Positions 2 to 17,754 of a DNA stretch of 21,943 nucleotides are shown here, piece by piece; position 1 is the first letter of the stretch; each line of letters begins with the position of its first letter. The stretch covers positions 1 through 21,943 of IMG/VR virus record IMGVR_UViG_3300010158_000357, one strand, 5' to 3'. The DNA is from a virus. The translations under genes were made by a program, and so were the position numbers. The notes under the pieces were generated by a model that was given only the letters and a program-made list of their open reading frames with translations, ran no database searches and was not told the DNA's origin.

Positions 2-1318
2 ACAAAACCTTCTCCAATAACAGCAATTGACCCAGATACTGGAAATCCATATACATATACGCCACAACCTCAAGTAAAAAATCCAAACGTCACACGGGAC
101 GATGATGGAAACTTTGTTTCAACTACACCTACCTATGTTAATGGCATTCCTGTGTTTGCTTCTTATGACGACAAGGGAAAAATTACAGGTTACTCAGGCG
201 ATCCTCGTGTCGTTACTTGGTTAGATGGCGGTCATTATGTCTATGGAAATTGGGATGCACAAGGCAATGCAAAGCCTGCCCAAGTAGCAACAAGGGGAGG
301 TGGTTTTTTTAAAAACTTGGCTCAAGATGTAGCGGGTGCGCTAAAAGACCTCGGCCCGCTTTGGACGGTTGCCAAAATAATTGAACCACAGTTGTCTTTA
401 GTTGATGTTGCAACCGATGTAGCACAAGGTAAGTTTGACCTTGGCACGGTTATGAGCGGGATATCAGGCTATACAGGGTTGCAGAACGCAGATATTGCTG
501 GTATGCAATCAGTGAATGGTTTAAATTCTGTAAGCGGTTTGGACTTATCCAGTGATATAGCAACTAAAGGATTTAATCCAGCGGTGCAGGCGGCATCAAA
601 TATTTCAACAGCAAAGTTGGCGGCCTCTGCAATCAGCGCAGTCCAAGCGGCTGATAAGGGTAACTTCACACCATTGATAGCAATGGGCGCAAATGTAGCA
701 ACCACTGAAAATCTGCCAACTGTGTCATTGGCTATGAGTACGCTATCCGCGGCTAATGCAATTGCAAAAAATGATCTAAGCGGTTTGTTACAAGTTTCTG
801 GAAACTTGGTCAACAGTCCTGATTTGAAAGTTGCGGGAGCCGCGACCAAACTAATCCAAGCATACAACTCTGGCAATCAATCAGCGGTTACTTCGGCGGG
901 TATGGAACTTGCCACTGCAATTGATACGAATGTACCAAGTGCTACCGCAACACTAAAAAGTATTGTGAATAATGCAGTATCTTCGATTAGCCCAACAACA
1001 AAAACTGCTTCGCTATCAGGTGAAGACATTCAAACTGAAGATACAACAAAACCAACTGGCGGATTAAATCAATTTGCTGATGTCAAAAATTTTGTGACTG
1101 ATAACAAGAGCATATTGAATGCTGTAAATTCAGCAAGACAAAATACTGCTACACAAATTTCTGATTCAAAAGTAGGTAATCCACCTGCACAAGTAAATGT
1201 AAGTAAATTAACACCAATAACCAAAACGCCAAGTTTAAATTTGGTAAAAACTGCATCTTTTTATCCGCCTACCTCAAAATTGGCAACAACTTCAGGCAAT
1301 CAAAATAAAGTGGTATAA
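2..1318 (+). CDS. Partial virion-associated protein with alanine-rich helical repeats (5' end outside window)
   Basis: The frame is open from base 2 to the TAA at 1316-1318, so the gene almost certainly begins upstream of the window; a GTG at 152 is only an internal candidate start. I do not recognise a named family. The visible part begins with a Pro/Thr/Asn-rich stretch, then short aromatic/Gly segments. Four degenerate helical repeats of about 35 residues follow between about 390 and 930, each with an Ala/Ser-rich helix, a GNF- or NDL-like turn and a second helix. The C-terminal part is polar, Thr/Ser/Lys-rich and probably disordered. The next gene starts 2 bp downstream, so the two are co-transcribed. 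Position in a run of large low-complexity genes suggests an internal or tail-associated virion protein; this is inferred from context only. Confidence 0.75.
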   Translation, partial: TKPSPITAIDPDTGNPYTYTPQPQVKNPNVTRDDDGNFVSTTPTYVNGIPVFASYDDKGKITGYSGDPRVVTWLDGGHYVYGNWDAQGNAKPAQVATRGGGFFKNLAQDVAGALKDLGPLWTVAKIIEPQLSLVDVATDVAQGKFDLGTVMSGISGYTGLQNADIAGMQSVNGLNSVSGLDLSSDIATKGFNPAVQAASNISTAKLAASAISAVQAADKGNFTPLIAMGANVATTENLPTVSLAMSTLSAANAIAKNDLSGLLQVSGNLVNSPDLKVAGAATKLIQAYNSGNQSAVTSAGMELATAIDTNVPSATATLKSIVNNAVSSISPTTKTASLSGEDIQTEDTTKPTGGLNQFADVKNFVTDNKSILNAVNSARQNTATQISDSKVGNPPAQVNVSKLTPITKTPSLNLVKTASFYPPTSKLATTSGNQNKVV

Positions 1319-3792: not shown

Positions 3793-4777
3793 TCTATTCC
3801 AAGGCGCGGCACTGCCAGATGTAACCACAACGGTTCAGAAGCAGGATACCGCCCCCGATTACTACAACAATTACCTCCAAGATATTGCAAACTTAGGGCA
3901 GAGCGCTGTCCAACAGGGCGGTGTCGCAGGGTTTAGCCCGCTCCAACAGCAAGCCTTCCAAATGGCTCCAGACATGGCGTTTGCTGGCTCTGGGTCGCTG
4001 GGTCAAGCCAGTCAAATGCTGACAGGCGCAGGCGGTACAGCAACCCCTGAGATTGTTGGTGGTTACATGAACCCGTACCAAGCCAATGTTGTGGACGAGA
4101 TGGGTCGTTTGGTCAACCGCAATGTAAAAGAAAATGTTTTGCCTGCACTCGGTGGCGCGGCGATTGGTTCTGGACAGTTTGGCTCACAGCGCCAGCAACA
4201 GATTACAGGAAACACGCTACGCGACATCCAAAGCGATTTGTTGGGTAAACAATACCAAGCCCTTAGCACTGGATACGATACGGCTACAAAGGCGGCGCAA
4301 GCCGATTTGACTCGGCAATTGACGGCAGGTCAGGGTTTGGGTCAACTAGGTCAAGCACAAAATCAACTTGGTACTGGTGGCCTAAACACCCTATTTAACT
4401 TTGGTGCAAACCAACAGAAGTTAGGGCAAGCGGCGCTTGATTACCCAATGTTGCAAGCACAAAACTATGCAAAACTTTTGCCAGCGGGTACGGTGCCTAT
4501 GGGTTCATTACAGCAGACGGTGGCTCCCGGCACTCAAGGTCAATTTGGACTCAGCCCACTGACTCAAATCGGTTCTTTGGGAACAATACTCGCGTCGTTG
4601 TCTGGTAATTCTGATATATCCAAGGCTATCAAAGAAGGAATGGATGTAACGAAACCAGTAGTAGCAAAGGCAGACGGCGGTGCTGTAATGATGGCAGATG
4701 GAGGAGTACCTATGGGCGCTTCTTACCACGATGGTCAGGGTAATTTCTATGATCAACATGGCTATTTAGTGGGGTAA
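3785..4777 (+). CDS. Gln/Gly/Ala-rich virion or internal protein
   Basis: 330 residues, starting inside the end of the preceding gene in another frame. The body is rich in Gln, Gly, Ala and Leu with predicted helices. It includes a GYMNPYQANVVDEMGR segment near residue 92, which I recognise only as a recurrent motif of unnamed phage proteins. A repeating GQ(L/A)GQ pattern follows at about residues 180-215. The C-terminus carries a KADGGAVMMADGGVPMG segment resembling the FADGG-type motif in the neighbouring large proteins. No enzyme motif, signal peptide or membrane segment is visible. The composition fits a coiled internal or ejection protein. The TAA is followed 3 bp later by the next ATG, so translation is probably coupled. 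Confidence 0.8.
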   Translation: MADLFQGAALPDVTTTVQKQDTAPDYYNNYLQDIANLGQSAVQQGGVAGFSPLQQQAFQMAPDMAFAGSGSLGQASQMLTGAGGTATPEIVGGYMNPYQANVVDEMGRLVNRNVKENVLPALGGAAIGSGQFGSQRQQQITGNTLRDIQSDLLGKQYQALSTGYDTATKAAQADLTRQLTAGQGLGQLGQAQNQLGTGGLNTLFNFGANQQKLGQAALDYPMLQAQNYAKLLPAGTVPMGSLQQTVAPGTQGQFGLSPLTQIGSLGTILASLSGNSDISKAIKEGMDVTKPVVAKADGGAVMMADGGVPMGASYHDGQGNFYDQHGYLVG

Positions 4778-6325: not shown

Positions 6326-8154
6326 TGTCTGATGTAATTTACAAAATCCAAGCGCCAGACGGAACGATACTGAAGATTCAAGGCCCTTCGGGGGCGACTG
6401 AGGCTGACCTCCAACAAGCGGCGGAGGAGCACTACTCTTCCATAAAGAAACAAGCCCCAGCAGAGCCTGTAAAACCACTTGTTCAAGAGCCTCCGCAAAA
6501 GGTTGCGTCACCAAACCCCTACGCAAACCCAGACACAGTTTATGACCCTGTTAGCGGGGTTCCTATGGATTACGGTATGGGTCAACGCATGGGTGCTACG
6601 TTGATGAGCGGATCGGCTGGAATGCTTAAGCCATTTGCTGGTGCGGCTCAGTTTCTAGGCATCAACAAACCTGCTGAAACTCTAGAAAAAGTTACTAACA
6701 TGGGCGCACAAGTTGGTGGAACGCCAGCCGAAGTTGCTGATATTGTGGGTCAAGTTGCCAGTCCTGCGCCTATGAAGATGTTTGAATTGGCAGGCAAGAT
6801 TCCAAAATTTGTTCCGCAGATTCGTGGAGCCACATCAAAAATAGGTTCTGTCTTAGATAAATCTGTATTGGCTAAGTCTGCCGCACAAGGAGCAGGTTCT
6901 GCGGCTTTTACGCCAACATCAGACACAGGAGACTATGCAGATTTCTTGACAAAGAAAGCCGAGCAGATGGGCGAGGGCGCAGTGCTTGGGGGCGTATTAG
7001 GCAAGGCGGGTCAGTTAGTTTTTGATCCCAAAGTTTCTGCTGAAATGAAGATGTTGAAAGATTTGGGAATGAAGCACTTCACGCCCGGTCAACTCGCGGG
7101 GCAAATCCCAGTGGTTGGAGGCATGATTCAAAAAGCGGAAGAAGCACTGACTAGCGCCCCATTACTTGGTTCAATCATTGGACACGGACAACGCATAGCA
7201 ACCGAAGACTTCAACCGCGCTATGGGTAATCAGGTACTAAAACCTTTGCACGAGACTTTGCCAAAAAGTGTCTCTGCTGGTCAGGACATGATCAACCATT
7301 TGTATTCAAAAATAAATGGTGCGTATAAAAGTTTAGAGCCAAAAATCTCTTTTGGTAACTTTATTGACCCTAAGACCAATTCGACAACTATCAATCGAAT
7401 GATGGATTCGAGTGTCAACATAACAAAAAATCTTGTCCCAGAAGCCGCTCAAAAAGTAGATGACGCTCTGAAGAAAACATTCTTTGAGCCACTCTTGGAA
7501 AGATATTCGCTTGATGGAAAACAATTTCGCATTGCCGAAATGAGTTTGGGCGAGATGGCTAAGACATATATTTCAAGCGCAGACCCAATACAGCGCAGTC
7601 AAGGTTTTGCCCTGCGTGAGTTCCAAGAAGCCTTACGCAATGAATTGACCAAACAAAACCCACAAGTGGGCAAAGAACTTAGAGAGGCGCACGAGGCGTT
7701 TAAAAATTATCTTCGCGTAGAAAAAGCGGCGGCTTTGCGTGGCGCAGATGAGGCTGTATTTTCTGCCAACCAAATGCGTTCCGCGGCTGAGTCTATGGCT
7801 GGTCGTCGTGCAACTGCAAGAGGTATAGGTATGTCAGTGCCTGAGTCTCAGGCGGCGGTCTCCGTTATGGGTAAAGGACTGCCAGATAGCGGTACAGCGG
7901 CTCGTTTGCTAACTCCAGCGGCATTGGGAAAGATGCTTGGATTTGGCGCGGCGGAGGCTGGCGGACATTTTCTTACAAGCGGTGCTCCGTTAGTTGCCGC
8001 GGGCGCTATGTACAACAAACCTGCAATGCGTGGCTTGACTGCATTGGCTACAGAAAGACCAGCGCAAATGCGTGCGGTAGCAGAACCTGTGCGCGGTGGC
8101 TTGTCACAACTTGGTGGTATTTTGGCGGCTAAACGCGAACGCCAAGAAGAATAA
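6325..8154 (+). CDS. Putative ejection/internal virion protein with N-terminal 'PDG...GPSGATEADLQ' module
   Basis: 609 residues, starting at the ATG of the TAATG overlap. The first 40 residues (IQAPDGTILKIQGPSGATEA, then helical) match a short beta-rich module I know from the start of many large phage internal proteins. A Pro-rich linker follows, then a long Ala/Gly-rich helical body with small hydrophobic stretches (about residues 85-120, 195-230, 265-290 and 530-560). These could insert into or cross membranes during DNA ejection. The C-terminus is basic (AKRERQEE). It is the last gene before the intrinsic terminator, so it ends the virion operon present here. Function is inferred from architecture and position; no enzyme motif was found. 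Confidence 0.8.
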   Translation: MSDVIYKIQAPDGTILKIQGPSGATEADLQQAAEEHYSSIKKQAPAEPVKPLVQEPPQKVASPNPYANPDTVYDPVSGVPMDYGMGQRMGATLMSGSAGMLKPFAGAAQFLGINKPAETLEKVTNMGAQVGGTPAEVADIVGQVASPAPMKMFELAGKIPKFVPQIRGATSKIGSVLDKSVLAKSAAQGAGSAAFTPTSDTGDYADFLTKKAEQMGEGAVLGGVLGKAGQLVFDPKVSAEMKMLKDLGMKHFTPGQLAGQIPVVGGMIQKAEEALTSAPLLGSIIGHGQRIATEDFNRAMGNQVLKPLHETLPKSVSAGQDMINHLYSKINGAYKSLEPKISFGNFIDPKTNSTTINRMMDSSVNITKNLVPEAAQKVDDALKKTFFEPLLERYSLDGKQFRIAEMSLGEMAKTYISSADPIQRSQGFALREFQEALRNELTKQNPQVGKELREAHEAFKNYLRVEKAAALRGADEAVFSANQMRSAAESMAGRRATARGIGMSVPESQAAVSVMGKGLPDSGTAARLLTPAALGKMLGFGAAEAGGHFLTSGAPLVAAGAMYNKPAMRGLTALATERPAQMRAVAEPVRGGLSQLGGILAAKRERQEE

Positions 8155-14026: not shown

Positions 14027-14325
14027 CTACAAAAGCAGAACGCAAGCATATGAACACCGTGGCTGAACTTGGGTGCGCGGTATGCAGGCGTATGGGGTAC
14101 GCGGGTACGCCTGCCGAGTTGCACCATCCAAGGCGATTGGCGGGGGGTTGGGGGCGTTCTAGCCACATGAGTGTCATACCGCTATGCCCAGAGCACCACA
14201 GAGGCTCTACGGGCGTTCACGGGCTTGGCACGAAAGGATTCCCTAAACACTGGGGCTACACCGAAGAAGACTTGCTAATTGACACTTTAGGATTACTTGA
14301 GGGCAATATTAGGGAAATCACCTAG
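14023..14325 (+). CDS. Ref-like HNH nuclease (RecA-dependent nuclease family)
   Basis: 100 residues. Metal and catalytic residues follow the Ref pattern: C18 and C21 (LGCAVCRRMG), H34 and H35 (AELHHPRR), C55, H58 and H59 (VIPLCPEHHRG). GVHGLGTKGFPKHWGYTEEDL follows. The phage P1 family member Ref cuts DNA where RecA has paired strands. This version is only the nuclease core, lacking P1 Ref's N-terminal extension. With the exonuclease, SSB-like protein and RusA it completes a recombination set. Its last codons and stop lie inside the upstream box of the first promoter cassette. Confidence 0.85.
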   Translation: MTTKAERKHMNTVAELGCAVCRRMGYAGTPAELHHPRRLAGGWGRSSHMSVIPLCPEHHRGSTGVHGLGTKGFPKHWGYTEEDLLIDTLGLLEGNIREIT

Positions 14326-14331
14326 AAAATA
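14310..14331 (+). promoter_or_regulatory. Upstream box, copy A (TAGG-N7-CCTA type)
   Basis: TAGGGAAATC followed by ACCTAGAAAATA. It contains the inverted pair TAGG...CCTA and an A-rich tail. It begins 36 bp before the -35 of promoter A. Related boxes begin at 16493 (26 bp before its -35) and 17245 (36 bp). The 10-bp difference is one helical turn. The box spans the stop codon of the Ref-like gene. Confidence 0.6.
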
Positions 14332-14345
14332 TTTGCAAATAGTTG

Positions 14346-14373
14346 TTGACATCGTTTAAGACTGGCTTAAACT
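14346..14373 (+). promoter_or_regulatory. Promoter cassette A with palindromic operator
   Basis: Consensus -35 TTGACA (14346-14351), a 16-bp spacer and -10 TAAACT (14368-14373). A perfect inverted repeat GTTTAAG-N5-CTTAAAC (14354-14372) fills the spacer and -10, so a bound repressor would block RNA polymerase. The 20 bases ending in this half-site (14341-14360) are identical at 17276-17295. It drives the gene at 14428 and probably the genes through the Mom-like one. Confidence 0.75.
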
Positions 14374-14379
14374 ACACAC

Positions 14380-14427
14380 ATCGACACAGCAATAACGCAC
14401 AGTCGATACAGTGAAGGAAACAGTGAA
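14380..14427 (+). other. Leader A: 5'-terminal hairpin and repeat-flanked RBS
   Basis: The predicted transcript start (7 bases after the -10) is the first base of a 6-bp stem ATCGAC (14380-14385) / GTCGAT (14402-14407). The loop holds ACAGCAATA and GCA. The RBS follows as AGTGAA-GGAAA-CAGTGAA before the ATG. Leaders B and C share the loop but have different, still complementary stems. Confidence 0.65.
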
Positions 14428-14712
14428 ATGAACAACGACCTAAACCTCAACAGCGTAGACACTCTCGGTTCTTTGTTGGCGCAGATTGCCGACCTTACAA
14501 AACAAGCCGAGGCTATCAAGGACGCAATCAAGGAATCAGCCAGCAAGGGTGGCGCTAAGGTAGTCGAAGGCGCTATCTTCAAAGCCACCTACAGCGACTC
14601 CAACGTCACAACTTTTGACAAGGACAAATTCATCGCTAAGTTCGGCGCGACTGAGTACGCAAACTACACCAAGACCAGCGCTCGTTTCACCGTCAAAGTT
14701 ACATCACGTTAA
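14428..14712 (+). CDS. Conserved small phage protein under cassette A promoter
   Basis: 94 residues. The N-terminal helix VDTLGSLLAQIADLTKQAEA, with coiled-coil pattern, is followed by GGAKVVEGAIFKATYSDSNV, DKDKFIAKFG and FTVKVTSR. I recognise this order from unnamed phage proteins in early regions. Codons favour C endings (aac, gac, atc, ttc) far more than in neighbouring genes, and the promoter is consensus-like, so strong expression is likely. The biochemical role is unknown. Confidence 0.75.
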   Translation: MNNDLNLNSVDTLGSLLAQIADLTKQAEAIKDAIKESASKGGAKVVEGAIFKATYSDSNVTTFDKDKFIAKFGATEYANYTKTSARFTVKVTSR

Positions 14713-15036: not shown

Positions 15037-15243
15037 ATGAACGAATCAACTATGAGCGAATACATCAAAGGCTTTGACCACGGGTGCGACTACATCGTGG
15101 CGGAGATCGAGCGATACACCAAGGAGGCTAACAGCCACGACGCGATGGTGCTGGTCGATTTGGTTAAGCGCCTCAAGATGGAGGAAAACACCAAGAATAT
15201 TGCGGCTATTCCATCACTTAAAGGGCAGGAGAAAGTTTTGTGA
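15037..15243 (+). CDS. Small helical protein with YIKGFDHG motif
   Basis: 68 residues from the ATG at 15037, with AAAAAGGAGCCACAAC as ribosome-binding site. SEYIKGFDHGCDYIVAEIER is followed by a second helix (AMVLVDLVKRLKMEE). The YIKGFDHG motif is echoed by YMKGFDDG in the protein at 8201-8383. It overlaps the GTG start of the Mom-like gene by 4 bp (GTGA), so the two are probably translated together. Function unknown. Confidence 0.65.
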   Translation: MNESTMSEYIKGFDHGCDYIVAEIERYTKEANSHDAMVLVDLVKRLKMEENTKNIAAIPSLKGQEKVL

Positions 15244-16016
15244 AAGCCCATCAAAGAATTATTCGTGAACAGGCTGAGTTCAAAGAATCTTCTTCTCTTT
15301 TTCCAGTTGTACCTGAAAACATTTGTTTGGATGATGCTCAATTCAAACGCATTGACTACCTGACAGCAAAACCAATCATTGAGGAACATGAATGGATTGG
15401 CACAATGCCTTTGCCTAAGTCATGCCGCTATATGTTTGGCGTTTATTTTGAAAATATATTGGGTGGGGTTGCTGTGTTTGTTGAACCATCAACTCGTCAA
15501 TTTAATGCTTTGTATCCTAGAGTTGTGTTGCAATTAAACAGAGGTGCTTGCGTCTGGTGGACACCAAAAAATACAGCAAGTTGGCTTATCTCTAAAAGTT
15601 GTGATTACCTTAAAAACGAAAACATAAAAGCCATAATTGCGTATTGCACACCAGAGGCTGGTGAGATCGGCACAATCTATCAGGCTTGCAATTTCCTTTA
15701 TGTTGGAGACACAACCAAATCTAAAGCATATTTTTTAGACAACCATTGGGTGTCTGCTAGAACTATGGCTGACAAAACTGCATGGGCTAAAGACAAGCAC
15801 CCTATGTGGGCAAAGGCTTTCCAAGAAATACCTGTACGAAATCAAAAGCCAAAGCATAGATATATCAAGTTAATCGGCAACAAAAACGAGAACAGAAAAT
15901 TTTTTAAGGTCTACAACTATGAGGCCAAACCATATCCAAGGCGGGAGAGTTCAGAGGTGAACGCTGTATCCAATACAGAGGCAAGGTTCGATTCCTTGAT
16001 CCCGCTCCATCAATAG
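15240..16016 (+). CDS. Mom-like GNAT-fold DNA modification acyltransferase
   Basis: 258 residues from a GTG start in a GTGA overlap; CAGGAGAAAGTTTT lies just upstream. The order fits the phage Mom family: KPIIEEHEWIGTMPLPKSCR, then CRYMFGVYFENILGGVAVF, RVVLQLNRGACVWW, TASWLISKSCDYLK, IIAYCTPEAGEIGTIYQACN and FLYVG. Mu Mom (231 residues) converts adenine in DNA to N6-carbamoylmethyladenine, which blocks restriction. A similar anti-restriction role is likely here, but the donor and product are unknown. No com-like regulator is visible. The last 23 codons before the stop are read through a tRNA-Gly-like sequence (15941-16009), so the native C-terminus may have ended earlier. Confidence 0.65.
   Translation: MKAHQRIIREQAEFKESSSLFPVVPENICLDDAQFKRIDYLTAKPIIEEHEWIGTMPLPKSCRYMFGVYFENILGGVAVFVEPSTRQFNALYPRVVLQLNRGACVWWTPKNTASWLISKSCDYLKNENIKAIIAYCTPEAGEIGTIYQACNFLYVGDTTKSKAYFLDNHWVSARTMADKTAWAKDKHPMWAKAFQEIPVRNQKPKHRYIKLIGNKNENRKFFKVYNYEAKPYPRRESSEVNAVSNTEARFDSLIPLHQ
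15941..16009 (+). tRNA. Compact tRNA-Gly-like element with encoded CCA
   Basis: Cloverleaf of 69 nt including CCA. Acceptor stem GCGGGA/TCCCGC (G1-C72 to A6-T67) with G7 opposite A66; discriminator T73; CCA at 16007-16009. D-arm GTTC-AGAGGT-GAAC. Anticodon arm CTGTA-TCCAA-TACAG, a 5-nt loop, or a 4-bp stem with 7-nt loop ATCCAAT. T-arm CAAGG-TTCGATT-CCTTG, which is canonical. Glycine identity features (G1-C72, C2-G71, G3-C70, U73, CC in the anticodon) are kept. U8 and a D-loop base are missing and the variable region is only 3 nt, so it is probably not a normal decoding tRNA. Read as ATCCAAT the anticodon would be CCA (Trp), but the acceptor argues for Gly. Confidence 0.6.
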
Positions 16017-16025
16017 GTAAAACAA

Positions 16026-16508
16026 ATGCGCAGAATAACGCCTGAAGGCCGTTTAGCGGACTTTCACCCAGAGGTAGGCAAACTCTGGCGTAGTCGCCAT
16101 GAAGAGCCAGAGCAGGAGGTATTCAAGCGCCAGCCACCGTGGATGGCTCCAGAGTCCGAAGACATTGACAACAAAATTGATTTGGAGCGCTTGATTCCAA
16201 AAACTTTGGAACAACTGACCGATAGAGAAAGGGCTTGCCTTTGGTTTCGGTTTTGGGACGACCGCACGCTTGATGATGTCGGGCAGTTCTTTCGAGTGAC
16301 CAAGGAGAGGGTACGCCAGATTGAGGCTAAAGCGCTCCGTAAATTAAGACACCCATCTCGTAGTGATCGACTGTATCCCTTCATTGACCGATGCCCAATA
16401 GAGCAACGTAAGCAAAAGGAAGAGGCTGAAAAACATCGTAAGTGGGCTATTAAGTGGCGCGAAGACCAGTTGATTGAGAAACTTTTGGCACTTAGGGAAA
16501 CTACTTAG
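16026..16508 (+). CDS. Stand-alone sigma-70 region 4 protein
   Basis: 160 residues; the ribosome-binding site AGGTAAAAC lies before the ATG. Residues 54-120 form a sigma region 4: [20 protein letters not shown] (4.1), then [20 protein letters not shown] and [12 protein letters not shown] (4.2). The last part is nearly the RpoD recognition helix for TTGACA. Regions 1-3 are absent: residues 1-53 are a polar Arg/Pro-rich tail and residues 121-160 a charged helix. It cannot open promoters alone. It may compete with or replace region 4 of host sigma, act as an anti- or co-sigma factor, or bind -35 elements. It ends inside the upstream box of cassette B. Confidence 0.8.
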
Positions 16509-17216: not shown

Positions 17217-17239
17217 GGGGGGGCGAAAGCCCCTCTCCC
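17217..17239 (+). other. GC-rich intergenic hairpin with GAAA tetraloop
   Basis: GGGGC-GAAA-GCCCC (17220-17233), with flanking GGG and CCC able to extend the stem past a small bulge. No T-run follows, so it is not a classical intrinsic terminator. It may stabilise the upstream mRNA or mark the boundary before cassette C. Confidence 0.5.
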
Positions 17240-17244
17240 AATAC

Positions 17245-17266
17245 TAGGGAAAGTACCTAGAAAATA
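17245..17266 (+). promoter_or_regulatory. Upstream box, copy C
   Basis: TAGGGAAAGT followed by ACCTAGAAAATA, with the TAGG...CCTA inverted pair intact. It begins 36 bp before the -35 of promoter C. Unlike copies A and B it lies outside any coding sequence. Confidence 0.6.
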
Positions 17267-17280
17267 AATTGATAAAGTTG

Positions 17281-17308
17281 TTGACATCGTTTAAGTTGGT
17301 GTTATACT
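17281..17308 (+). promoter_or_regulatory. Promoter cassette C with degenerate operator
   Basis: TTGACA (17281-17286), a 16-bp spacer and TATACT (17303-17308), the best -35/-10 pair of the three. The left operator half GTTTAAG (17289-17295) is intact. The right half is GTTATAC (17301-17307), 5 of 7 matches. Repression by the shared regulator should therefore be weaker here. It drives the papain-like gene. Confidence 0.75.
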
Positions 17309-17314
17309 AGTATC

Positions 17315-17361
17315 ACTGACACAGCAATACCGCATAGTCAGTAACAGTGAAGGAAAGTGAA
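17315..17361 (+). other. Leader C: 5'-terminal hairpin and repeat-flanked RBS
   Basis: Stem ACTGAC (17315-17320) / GTCAGT (17337-17342), with a 16-nt loop matching leader A at 13 of 16 positions. The predicted transcript start is the first stem base. The RBS is AGTGAA-GGAA-AGTGAA. Confidence 0.65.
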
Positions 17362-17754
17362 ATGAACTATCAACACAATGACGGAGGCCGCAAAGCCGCA
17401 GGCTTCAAGGGAACAGCAGGCGACTGTGGTGCCCGTGCAATGGCAATCGCACTGTGCCTCGACTACAAGGCCGTGTACAAGGAACTGGCTCAAGCCAATG
17501 CCGACAACGGTCGTGCTAAGTCAGCCCGTAACGGCATCAACAAAGACATCTACGCAGAGGTGCTGAAGCGTTACGGTTGGGTGTGGCACAAGGCTCCCCA
17601 GTTCACAGGCCGTAAAGCGCGTTGCAGTGATATGCCCAAGGGTGTGGTCATTGCCAAGCAGGCCCACCACTTCGTGGCCGTGATCGACGGTGTGGCTAAC
17701 GACATCTGGAACTGCACCGAGCGTATGGTGTACGGGTACTGGGTTAAGCAATAA
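17362..17754 (+). CDS. Putative papain-like cysteine protease/transferase fold protein
   Basis: 130 residues from the ATG at 17362. GTAGDCGARAMAIALCLDY places a Cys (C22) at the start of a helix. KQAHHFVAVIDGVANDIWNC supplies a His (H102 or H103) and an Asp/Asn further on, the Cys-His-Asp order of papain-like folds. SARNGIN lies between. Similar small phage proteins are known to me only as unnamed. Codons are strongly C/G-ending and unlike the flanking AT-rich genes, which suggests high expression or a different origin. Cassette C is directly upstream. Target and activity are unknown; an early anti-host role is a guess. Confidence 0.6.
   Translation: MNYQHNDGGRKAAGFKGTAGDCGARAMAIALCLDYKAVYKELAQANADNGRAKSARNGINKDIYAEVLKRYGWVWHKAPQFTGRKARCSDMPKGVVIAKQAHHFVAVIDGVANDIWNCTERMVYGYWVKQ

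Follow-up and report, generated by a model that had tools for sequence, protein, structure and literature searches.

A covarying tRNA-Gly-like RNA at the 3' end of phage mom genes as a likely dedicated glycine donor for Mom

INTRODUCTION

Why should a phage gene for a DNA-modifying enzyme end in what looks like a tRNA? The window analysed here, a stretch of 21,943 nucleotides from an IMG/VR virus record, contains such a gene, and a first-pass annotation had proposed that the tRNA-like RNA is charged with glycine and feeds the enzyme rather than the ribosome. The gene belongs to the mom family. In phage Mu, Mom is a tightly controlled enzyme, and its product, carbamoylmethyl-adenine, can formally be seen as glycinamide attached to the base. 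Other large phage base modifications shield DNA from restriction, and that of Mom is likewise large. We found no established donor for Mom in the open-access literature, where a published assumption is that it uses an acyl-CoA such as glycyl-CoA (PMC7824862). Nor did we find any tRNA-dependent modification of a DNA base in the open-access literature; preprints lay outside this search, and an earlier report may exist. A precedent comes from Staphylococcus aureus, where the Fem transferases that act on peptidoglycan are proposed to draw on three diverted tRNA-Gly isoacceptors whose D-loop is altered and whose EF-Tu features are weak (PMC4052509).

RESULTS

The element and the gene that carries it

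The features of the locus are as follows, all on the plus strand.

15240..16016, mom-family gene, GTG start, 258 amino acids, its last codons within the element (Pfam PF25680, phrog_1384, Mu Mom fold)
15941..16009, tRNA-Gly-like RNA element of 69 nt, full cloverleaf with encoded CCA (covariance-model scores and fold)
15941..15946, acceptor stem 5' strand, GCGGGA, pairing with 16000-16005 (fold)
15948..15948, position 8, an A replacing the canonical U8 (A in 19/23 relatives, U in 1/23)
15949..15962, D arm with a short loop (Rfam match and fold)
15964..15978, anticodon arm CTGTATCCAATACAG (Rfam match and fold; the helix covaries among relatives)
15969..15971, anticodon UCC (Gly), C35 and C36 (NCC in 23/23 relatives)
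15982..15998, T arm CAAGG-TTCGATT-CCTTG (Rfam match and fold)
16000..16005, acceptor stem 3' strand, TCCCGC (fold)
16006..16009, U73 discriminator and encoded CCA (U73 in 22/23 relatives)

Divided by structural segment, the element reads GCGGGAG A GTTC AGAGGT GAAC G CTGTA TCCAA TACAG AGG CAAGG TTCGATT CCTTG ATCCCGC T CCA. It folds with -24.6 kcal/mol (z -2.6), and the fold, the Rfam match and the relatives described below agree on a cloverleaf with acceptor, D, anticodon and T arms. The acceptor stem had been described as intact, which holds for G1-C72, C2-G71 and G3-C70; pair 7-66 is a mismatch, leaving six acceptor pairs. The other features noted by the first-pass annotation can all be read in the element: T73 (U73), the encoded CCA, an intact T arm, the absence of U8, a shortened D-loop and variable region, and an abnormal anticodon loop, which has 5 nt. 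The CC that it placed in this loop is there, but with UCC as the anticodon the preceding base is A and not U33. The element therefore has all the identity elements for glycyl-tRNA synthetase (GlyRS), namely G1-C72, C2-G71, U73, C35 and C36, and lacks both U8 and U33, which a decoding tRNA would have.

The Rfam tRNA model (RF00005) matches the element over its full length with 26 bits (E 0.00097, in a 150-nt slice), below the gathering cut-off of 29 bits and hence below the score of a decoding tRNA. A whole-window Rfam scan gave no match, and ARAGORN with default settings missed the element in the window. We trained a covariance model on 16 ordinary phage tRNAs, window excluded (R1), and ran it over the whole window with filters off; it found the element with 42.9 bits (E 1.5e-10), the next-best place in the window scoring only 12.8 bits, and a model trained on an enlarged set of relatives, window again left out (R3), gave 35.7 bits (E 2.7e-5), where the E-values of models built in this analysis are rough. 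Compared with phage tRNA-Gly(UCC/CCC), the element is missing U8, one base of the D-loop, two of the anticodon loop and some of the variable loop, and its differences within stems are paired changes. From the fold, the Rfam and R1 scores and this comparison we conclude, on sequence grounds, that the element is a tRNA homologue derived from tRNA-Gly, and that a chance hairpin is excluded.

The whole element is read in frame by the mom gene (ORF 15240-16016), as had been claimed. The protein matches PF25680 with 90.8 bits (cut-off 27.1) over profile positions 3-201 of 202, in other words the whole domain, and also matches phrog_1384. In a structure search with the predicted model, the top match is Mu Mom (8BV8; E 3.7e-12, TM 0.62/0.71), and a profile comparison with the same protein gives E 1.1e-21. 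CoA-dependent GNATs make up most of the structural neighbours. The AlphaFold model is good for residues 1-237, while residues 238-258, which are encoded by the element, have pLDDT below 50. The Mu protein ends in PYPK, at the same point where the element starts in the window: the Mom domain stops where the RNA element starts. The position of Mu S124 is apparently Ser in the window and Ala or Thr in some relatives, as read by eye; we therefore make no claim about the active site. The Mom ORFs of L181, L182, L186, L214, L221, L225 and L230 extend into a long C-terminal part that resembles a GIY-YIG-type nuclease (motif identified by eye).

A cassette shared by otherwise unrelated phages

The element lies within a longer conserved block.

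15927..16010, plus strand, 84-nt block that is 100% identical in the unrelated phages L002 and L003 (nucleotide comparison; homology stops after CCA and one T)

One long homologous block, consisting of mom and the element, is common to the window phage (G001, a 50.3-kb record) and the L003 phage, which otherwise share only small patches; the element is the last sequence that they have in common. The mom copies of L002 and L003 differ from that of the window at 148-158 of 774 nt (about 20%), whereas the element is 100% identical. Of the changed codons, 87-96 are synonymous, and the Mom protein of the window is 88% identical to those of L002 and L003. Since recombination could yield a short identical patch, the wider family described below is the stronger argument.

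The surroundings of the cassette differ. In the window, mom is followed by a gene for a sigma-70 region 4 protein (16026-16508; Pfam 62.6 bits), and its place is taken in L003 by a gene for an unrelated protein of 677 amino acids. Comparison with G001 also revealed diverged repeats at window positions 14304-14433 and 17239-17367, about 79% identical, between the genes flanking the mom region.

A family of elements beside mom genes

Applied to further Mom loci, R1 found an element just upstream of mom in L023 and another in L222, which starts directly behind the PKR codons, just as the window element does. More were seen on inspection of the 3' ends of related mom genes. We then built a model from eight mom-linked elements, window excluded (R2), which at E<1e-5 gave 15 matches among a first hundred Mom loci and 11 among a further hundred; the second set includes a few near-copies of the first, and most of its matches lie outside the training set. 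All matches are at the mom 3' end and on the same strand, except for those in L023 and L236; the latter (1091-1161, minus strand) is in a bacterial genome, a Myxococcales MAG, about 800 nt upstream of mom and on the opposite strand. In all, models trained without the window place an element at the mom 3' end of about two dozen further phages. On whole records of the phages used to build it, R3 finds a single match each, always the mom-adjacent one. The conservation beside mom genes that the first-pass annotation had put forward as a check is therefore strongly positive.

The element begins close to the YPKR motif in 22 loci, at points ranging from 4 nt within the motif to 7 nt past it. The reading frame of mom runs into the element in each of the three phases and terminates upstream of it, within it or downstream of it. 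The peptide encoded there is thus not conserved, and selection acts on the RNA rather than on the peptide. Because a tRNA above the Rfam cut-off is present in only 2 of 25 phages with the element, the element stands outside tRNA arrays. Some Mom phages have lone tRNAs; these are Arg, Ile and Leu/Glu, so Mom phages do not generally carry such a tRNA at another place in the genome.

Several other matches were set aside. L180:708 (708-783) resembles the 3' end of tmRNA and L195:736 (736-832) is tRNA-Ser-like; both lie about 1.2 kb upstream of mom and outside the family. A weak match at L195:1529, inside A12, is spurious and was not counted, although it is still one of the 24 rows of an alignment. 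A degenerate tRNA-like element of a type other than Gly was observed about 1.6 kb downstream of mom in L139 (1501-1574; G047 4292-4365).

The first-pass annotation regarded relatives lacking the element, or stems decaying without compensation, as refuting its proposal. Relatives lacking it do occur: no element was detectable in 48 of the 73 Mom genes of a subgroup placed on a tree, and none was found in ten named-phage Mom loci or in the mom region of phage Mu. The stems, on the other hand, covary strongly (see below). Eight presence changes are required on the tree, meaning that the element was gained or lost several times. It is therefore not obligatory, and Mom can act without it, in which case it presumably uses host Gly-tRNA or another donor.

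Covariation and conserved identity elements

The first eight sequences were aligned using MAFFT, with the structure specified by us and no model fitting; 96.3% of their pair cells pair, with both-side changes in 15 of 21 pairs. Among 98 distinct sequences the figures are 96.7% and 18 of 21 pairs, in an alignment that, like the other larger ones, was made by fitting to the model and is thereby biased towards the structure. In these 98 sequences there are 468 double-changed cells, compared to 124.6 in shuffles, and slid structures leave only 35-44% of cells paired.

The bases that bacterial GlyRS reads are G1-C72, C2-G71, U73 and C35-C36. The first two pairs are invariant (98/98 distinct sequences), and among 23 elements U73 occurs in 22 and C35-C36 in all 23. 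Base 34 is free (U, A, C or G), and every variant is a glycine anticodon: UCC 11, ACC 9, CCC 2 and GCC 1 in the 23 relatives. By contrast U8, U33 and T54-T55, which belong to the tertiary shape of tRNA and to decoding, are largely lost, with U8 in 1/23, U33 in 9/23 and T54-T55 as TT in 4/23; the T arm and D-loop are altered in most relatives. This pattern is the one expected of an RNA that is charged with glycine and has no need to decode, and suggests such a role.

Searching from the RNA pattern

A reverse search of IMG/VR used a Mom-free pattern made up of the T arm, U73 and the 3' strand of the acceptor stem. It found at least 120 loci, on phage contigs; among the matches listed, 105 of 120 conform to the cloverleaf descriptor, mom lies beside the element in 109 of 120, and in 105 of 120 the element overlaps the 3' end of mom or directly adjoins it. 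Also among the matches listed, two elements are 185 nt after mom, two are just upstream of it, and 11 of 120 have no Mom in the stretch examined; three of seven of these checked on the whole record do encode Mom. Two long IMG/VR records carry the pattern and no Mom. The Mom proteins of the loci found in this way are mostly 25-37% identical to the earlier Mom set. Because the pattern was derived from mom-linked elements, the search reveals the neighbours of this RNA type, and not the number of types.

Cultured and named phages

In Psychrobacter phage vB_PmaS_Y8A (locus L440 2001-2141, OQ059336.1), the element occurs as two tandem copies, one at 7786-7853 (49.7 bits) and the other at about 7858-7926 (45.3 bits). 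They start a few nucleotides after the gene for WBF05279, which is annotated as hypothetical and matches Pfam Mom with 188 bits; the second mom gene of this phage has no element. The genome was reported to be without tRNA genes (PMC10434257). In Verrucomicrobia phage P8625 (L443; NC_029047.1 1995-2070), an element of 67.5 bits lies inside the annotated gp04 and adjoins a ParB/DNA-methylase gene; a search of the 32.9-kb genome for Pfam Mom found none.

DISCUSSION

We consider it likely that the element belongs to a widespread phage family of dedicated, non-ribosomal tRNA-Gly donors for Mom, made together with mom. The basis computed here is RNA homology, covariation, the identity elements, the loss of decoding features, the linkage to Mom and a non-conserved peptide, and the glycyl-donor reading of the first-pass annotation is supported by these comparisons. 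That phages use an aminoacyl-tRNA for DNA base modification, with a phage-encoded non-ribosomal Gly-tRNA giving its glycine to Mom, is also probable in our judgement.

We infer the following steps, from maturation and charging of the RNA through evasion of EF-Tu to glycine donation and its chemistry. The cloverleaf would sit at the 3' end of the mom transcript and be freed by RNase P and 3' nucleases of the host; where an element encodes no CCA, its 3' end would be finished by the CCA-adding enzyme. Host GlyRS could then charge the element via G1-C72, C2-G71, U73 and C35-C36. Because U8, U33 and often normal T- and D-loops are lost, the charged element would be poorly accepted by EF-Tu and the ribosome, and would remain available. 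Mom, which has a GNAT fold, would take the glycine and use it to form the carbamoylmethyl group at N6 of adenine in phage DNA, possibly through a glycyl-N6 intermediate that rearranges intramolecularly via a five-membered ring. Against this donor role, RNA processing would cut the mom mRNA within its coding end, and P8625 and the two long IMG/VR records have the element or pattern without Mom. The Mom genes with no detectable element, the published acyl-CoA view (PMC7824862) and the CoA dependence of most structural neighbours also count against it.

The closest parallel is the tRNA-Gly of the S. aureus FemX/A/B system, in which tRNA-Gly is a non-ribosomal glycine donor to a transferase, as proposed here, and the T-stem and D-loop are altered (PMC4052509). 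The staphylococcal tRNAs are chromosomal, full-size and used for peptidoglycan, whereas the phage RNA is nested in a DNA-modification gene and is more degenerate, having mostly shed U8 and U33. Mu Mom (PF25680, 8BV8) has the same enzyme family, fold and PYP(K/R) end as the window protein, and differs in that its mom region is without the element. Canonical phage tRNA-Gly genes (UCC/CCC) visibly share ancestry with the element, a few deletions and paired changes apart; unlike them, it scores under the Rfam cut-off, is missed by default ARAGORN, lies outside arrays and has lost decoding features.

The tRNA-like fold might instead regulate the mom mRNA in cis, limiting Mom synthesis when it is bound or cut by GlyRS, RNase P or Mom itself. 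The element is within the mom transcript, usually overlapping the coding end, and translation of Mu mom is controlled by the RNA-binding protein Com (PMC6483171). Such a regulator would have no need for G1-C72, C2-G71, U73 and C35-C36 together in essentially all members, and the element is upstream of mom in L023, L360 and L426 and in tandem after the mom stop in Y8A; we regard this explanation as unlikely. A glycyl donor for another mom-associated reaction, for example that of a methylase or ParB-like protein, would suit P8625, whose element is beside the ParB/DNA-methylase gene with no Pfam Mom. Given that Mom is the common partner (109 of 120 loci among the matches listed) and that its own product is formally glycinamide on adenine, we find this quite improbable.

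Phages do carry tRNAs that protect translation from host tRNA-cutting defences, and a decoy or replacement tRNA of this kind could travel near anti-defence genes such as mom. The loss of U8, U33 and the T-loop would make it a poor replacement, the linkage is, as largely seen, specifically to mom, and no single codon is served because position 34 is free; this explanation has little to recommend it. The first-pass annotation also listed a decayed tRNA or an attachment-site relic. The deletions relative to canonical tRNA-Gly would fit either, and the homology between two phages ends exactly at CCA. Both are contradicted by the strong covariation and the 84-nt identity, and an integrase (PF00589) is present in only 1 of 12 phages with the element and absent from the window phage. 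Decay is ruled out by the covariation, and the relic is rejected on the covariation together with the missing integrase (window phage and 11 of 12 element phages); the chance that either is correct is minimal.

A mom-linked tRNA-Gly across many phages points to an aminoacyl-tRNA, rather than an acyl-CoA, as the donor for Mom. The analysis adds an RNA family with covarying stems that escapes annotation tools, and other orphan phage tRNA-like genes may likewise supply enzymes rather than ribosomes. Psychrobacter phage Y8A provides cultured material that makes the question of the Mom donor testable. If true, the proposal that Mom takes its glycine from a phage-encoded tRNA would answer that question, provide the first tRNA-dependent DNA modification system, and join the chemistry of translation to the modification of DNA.
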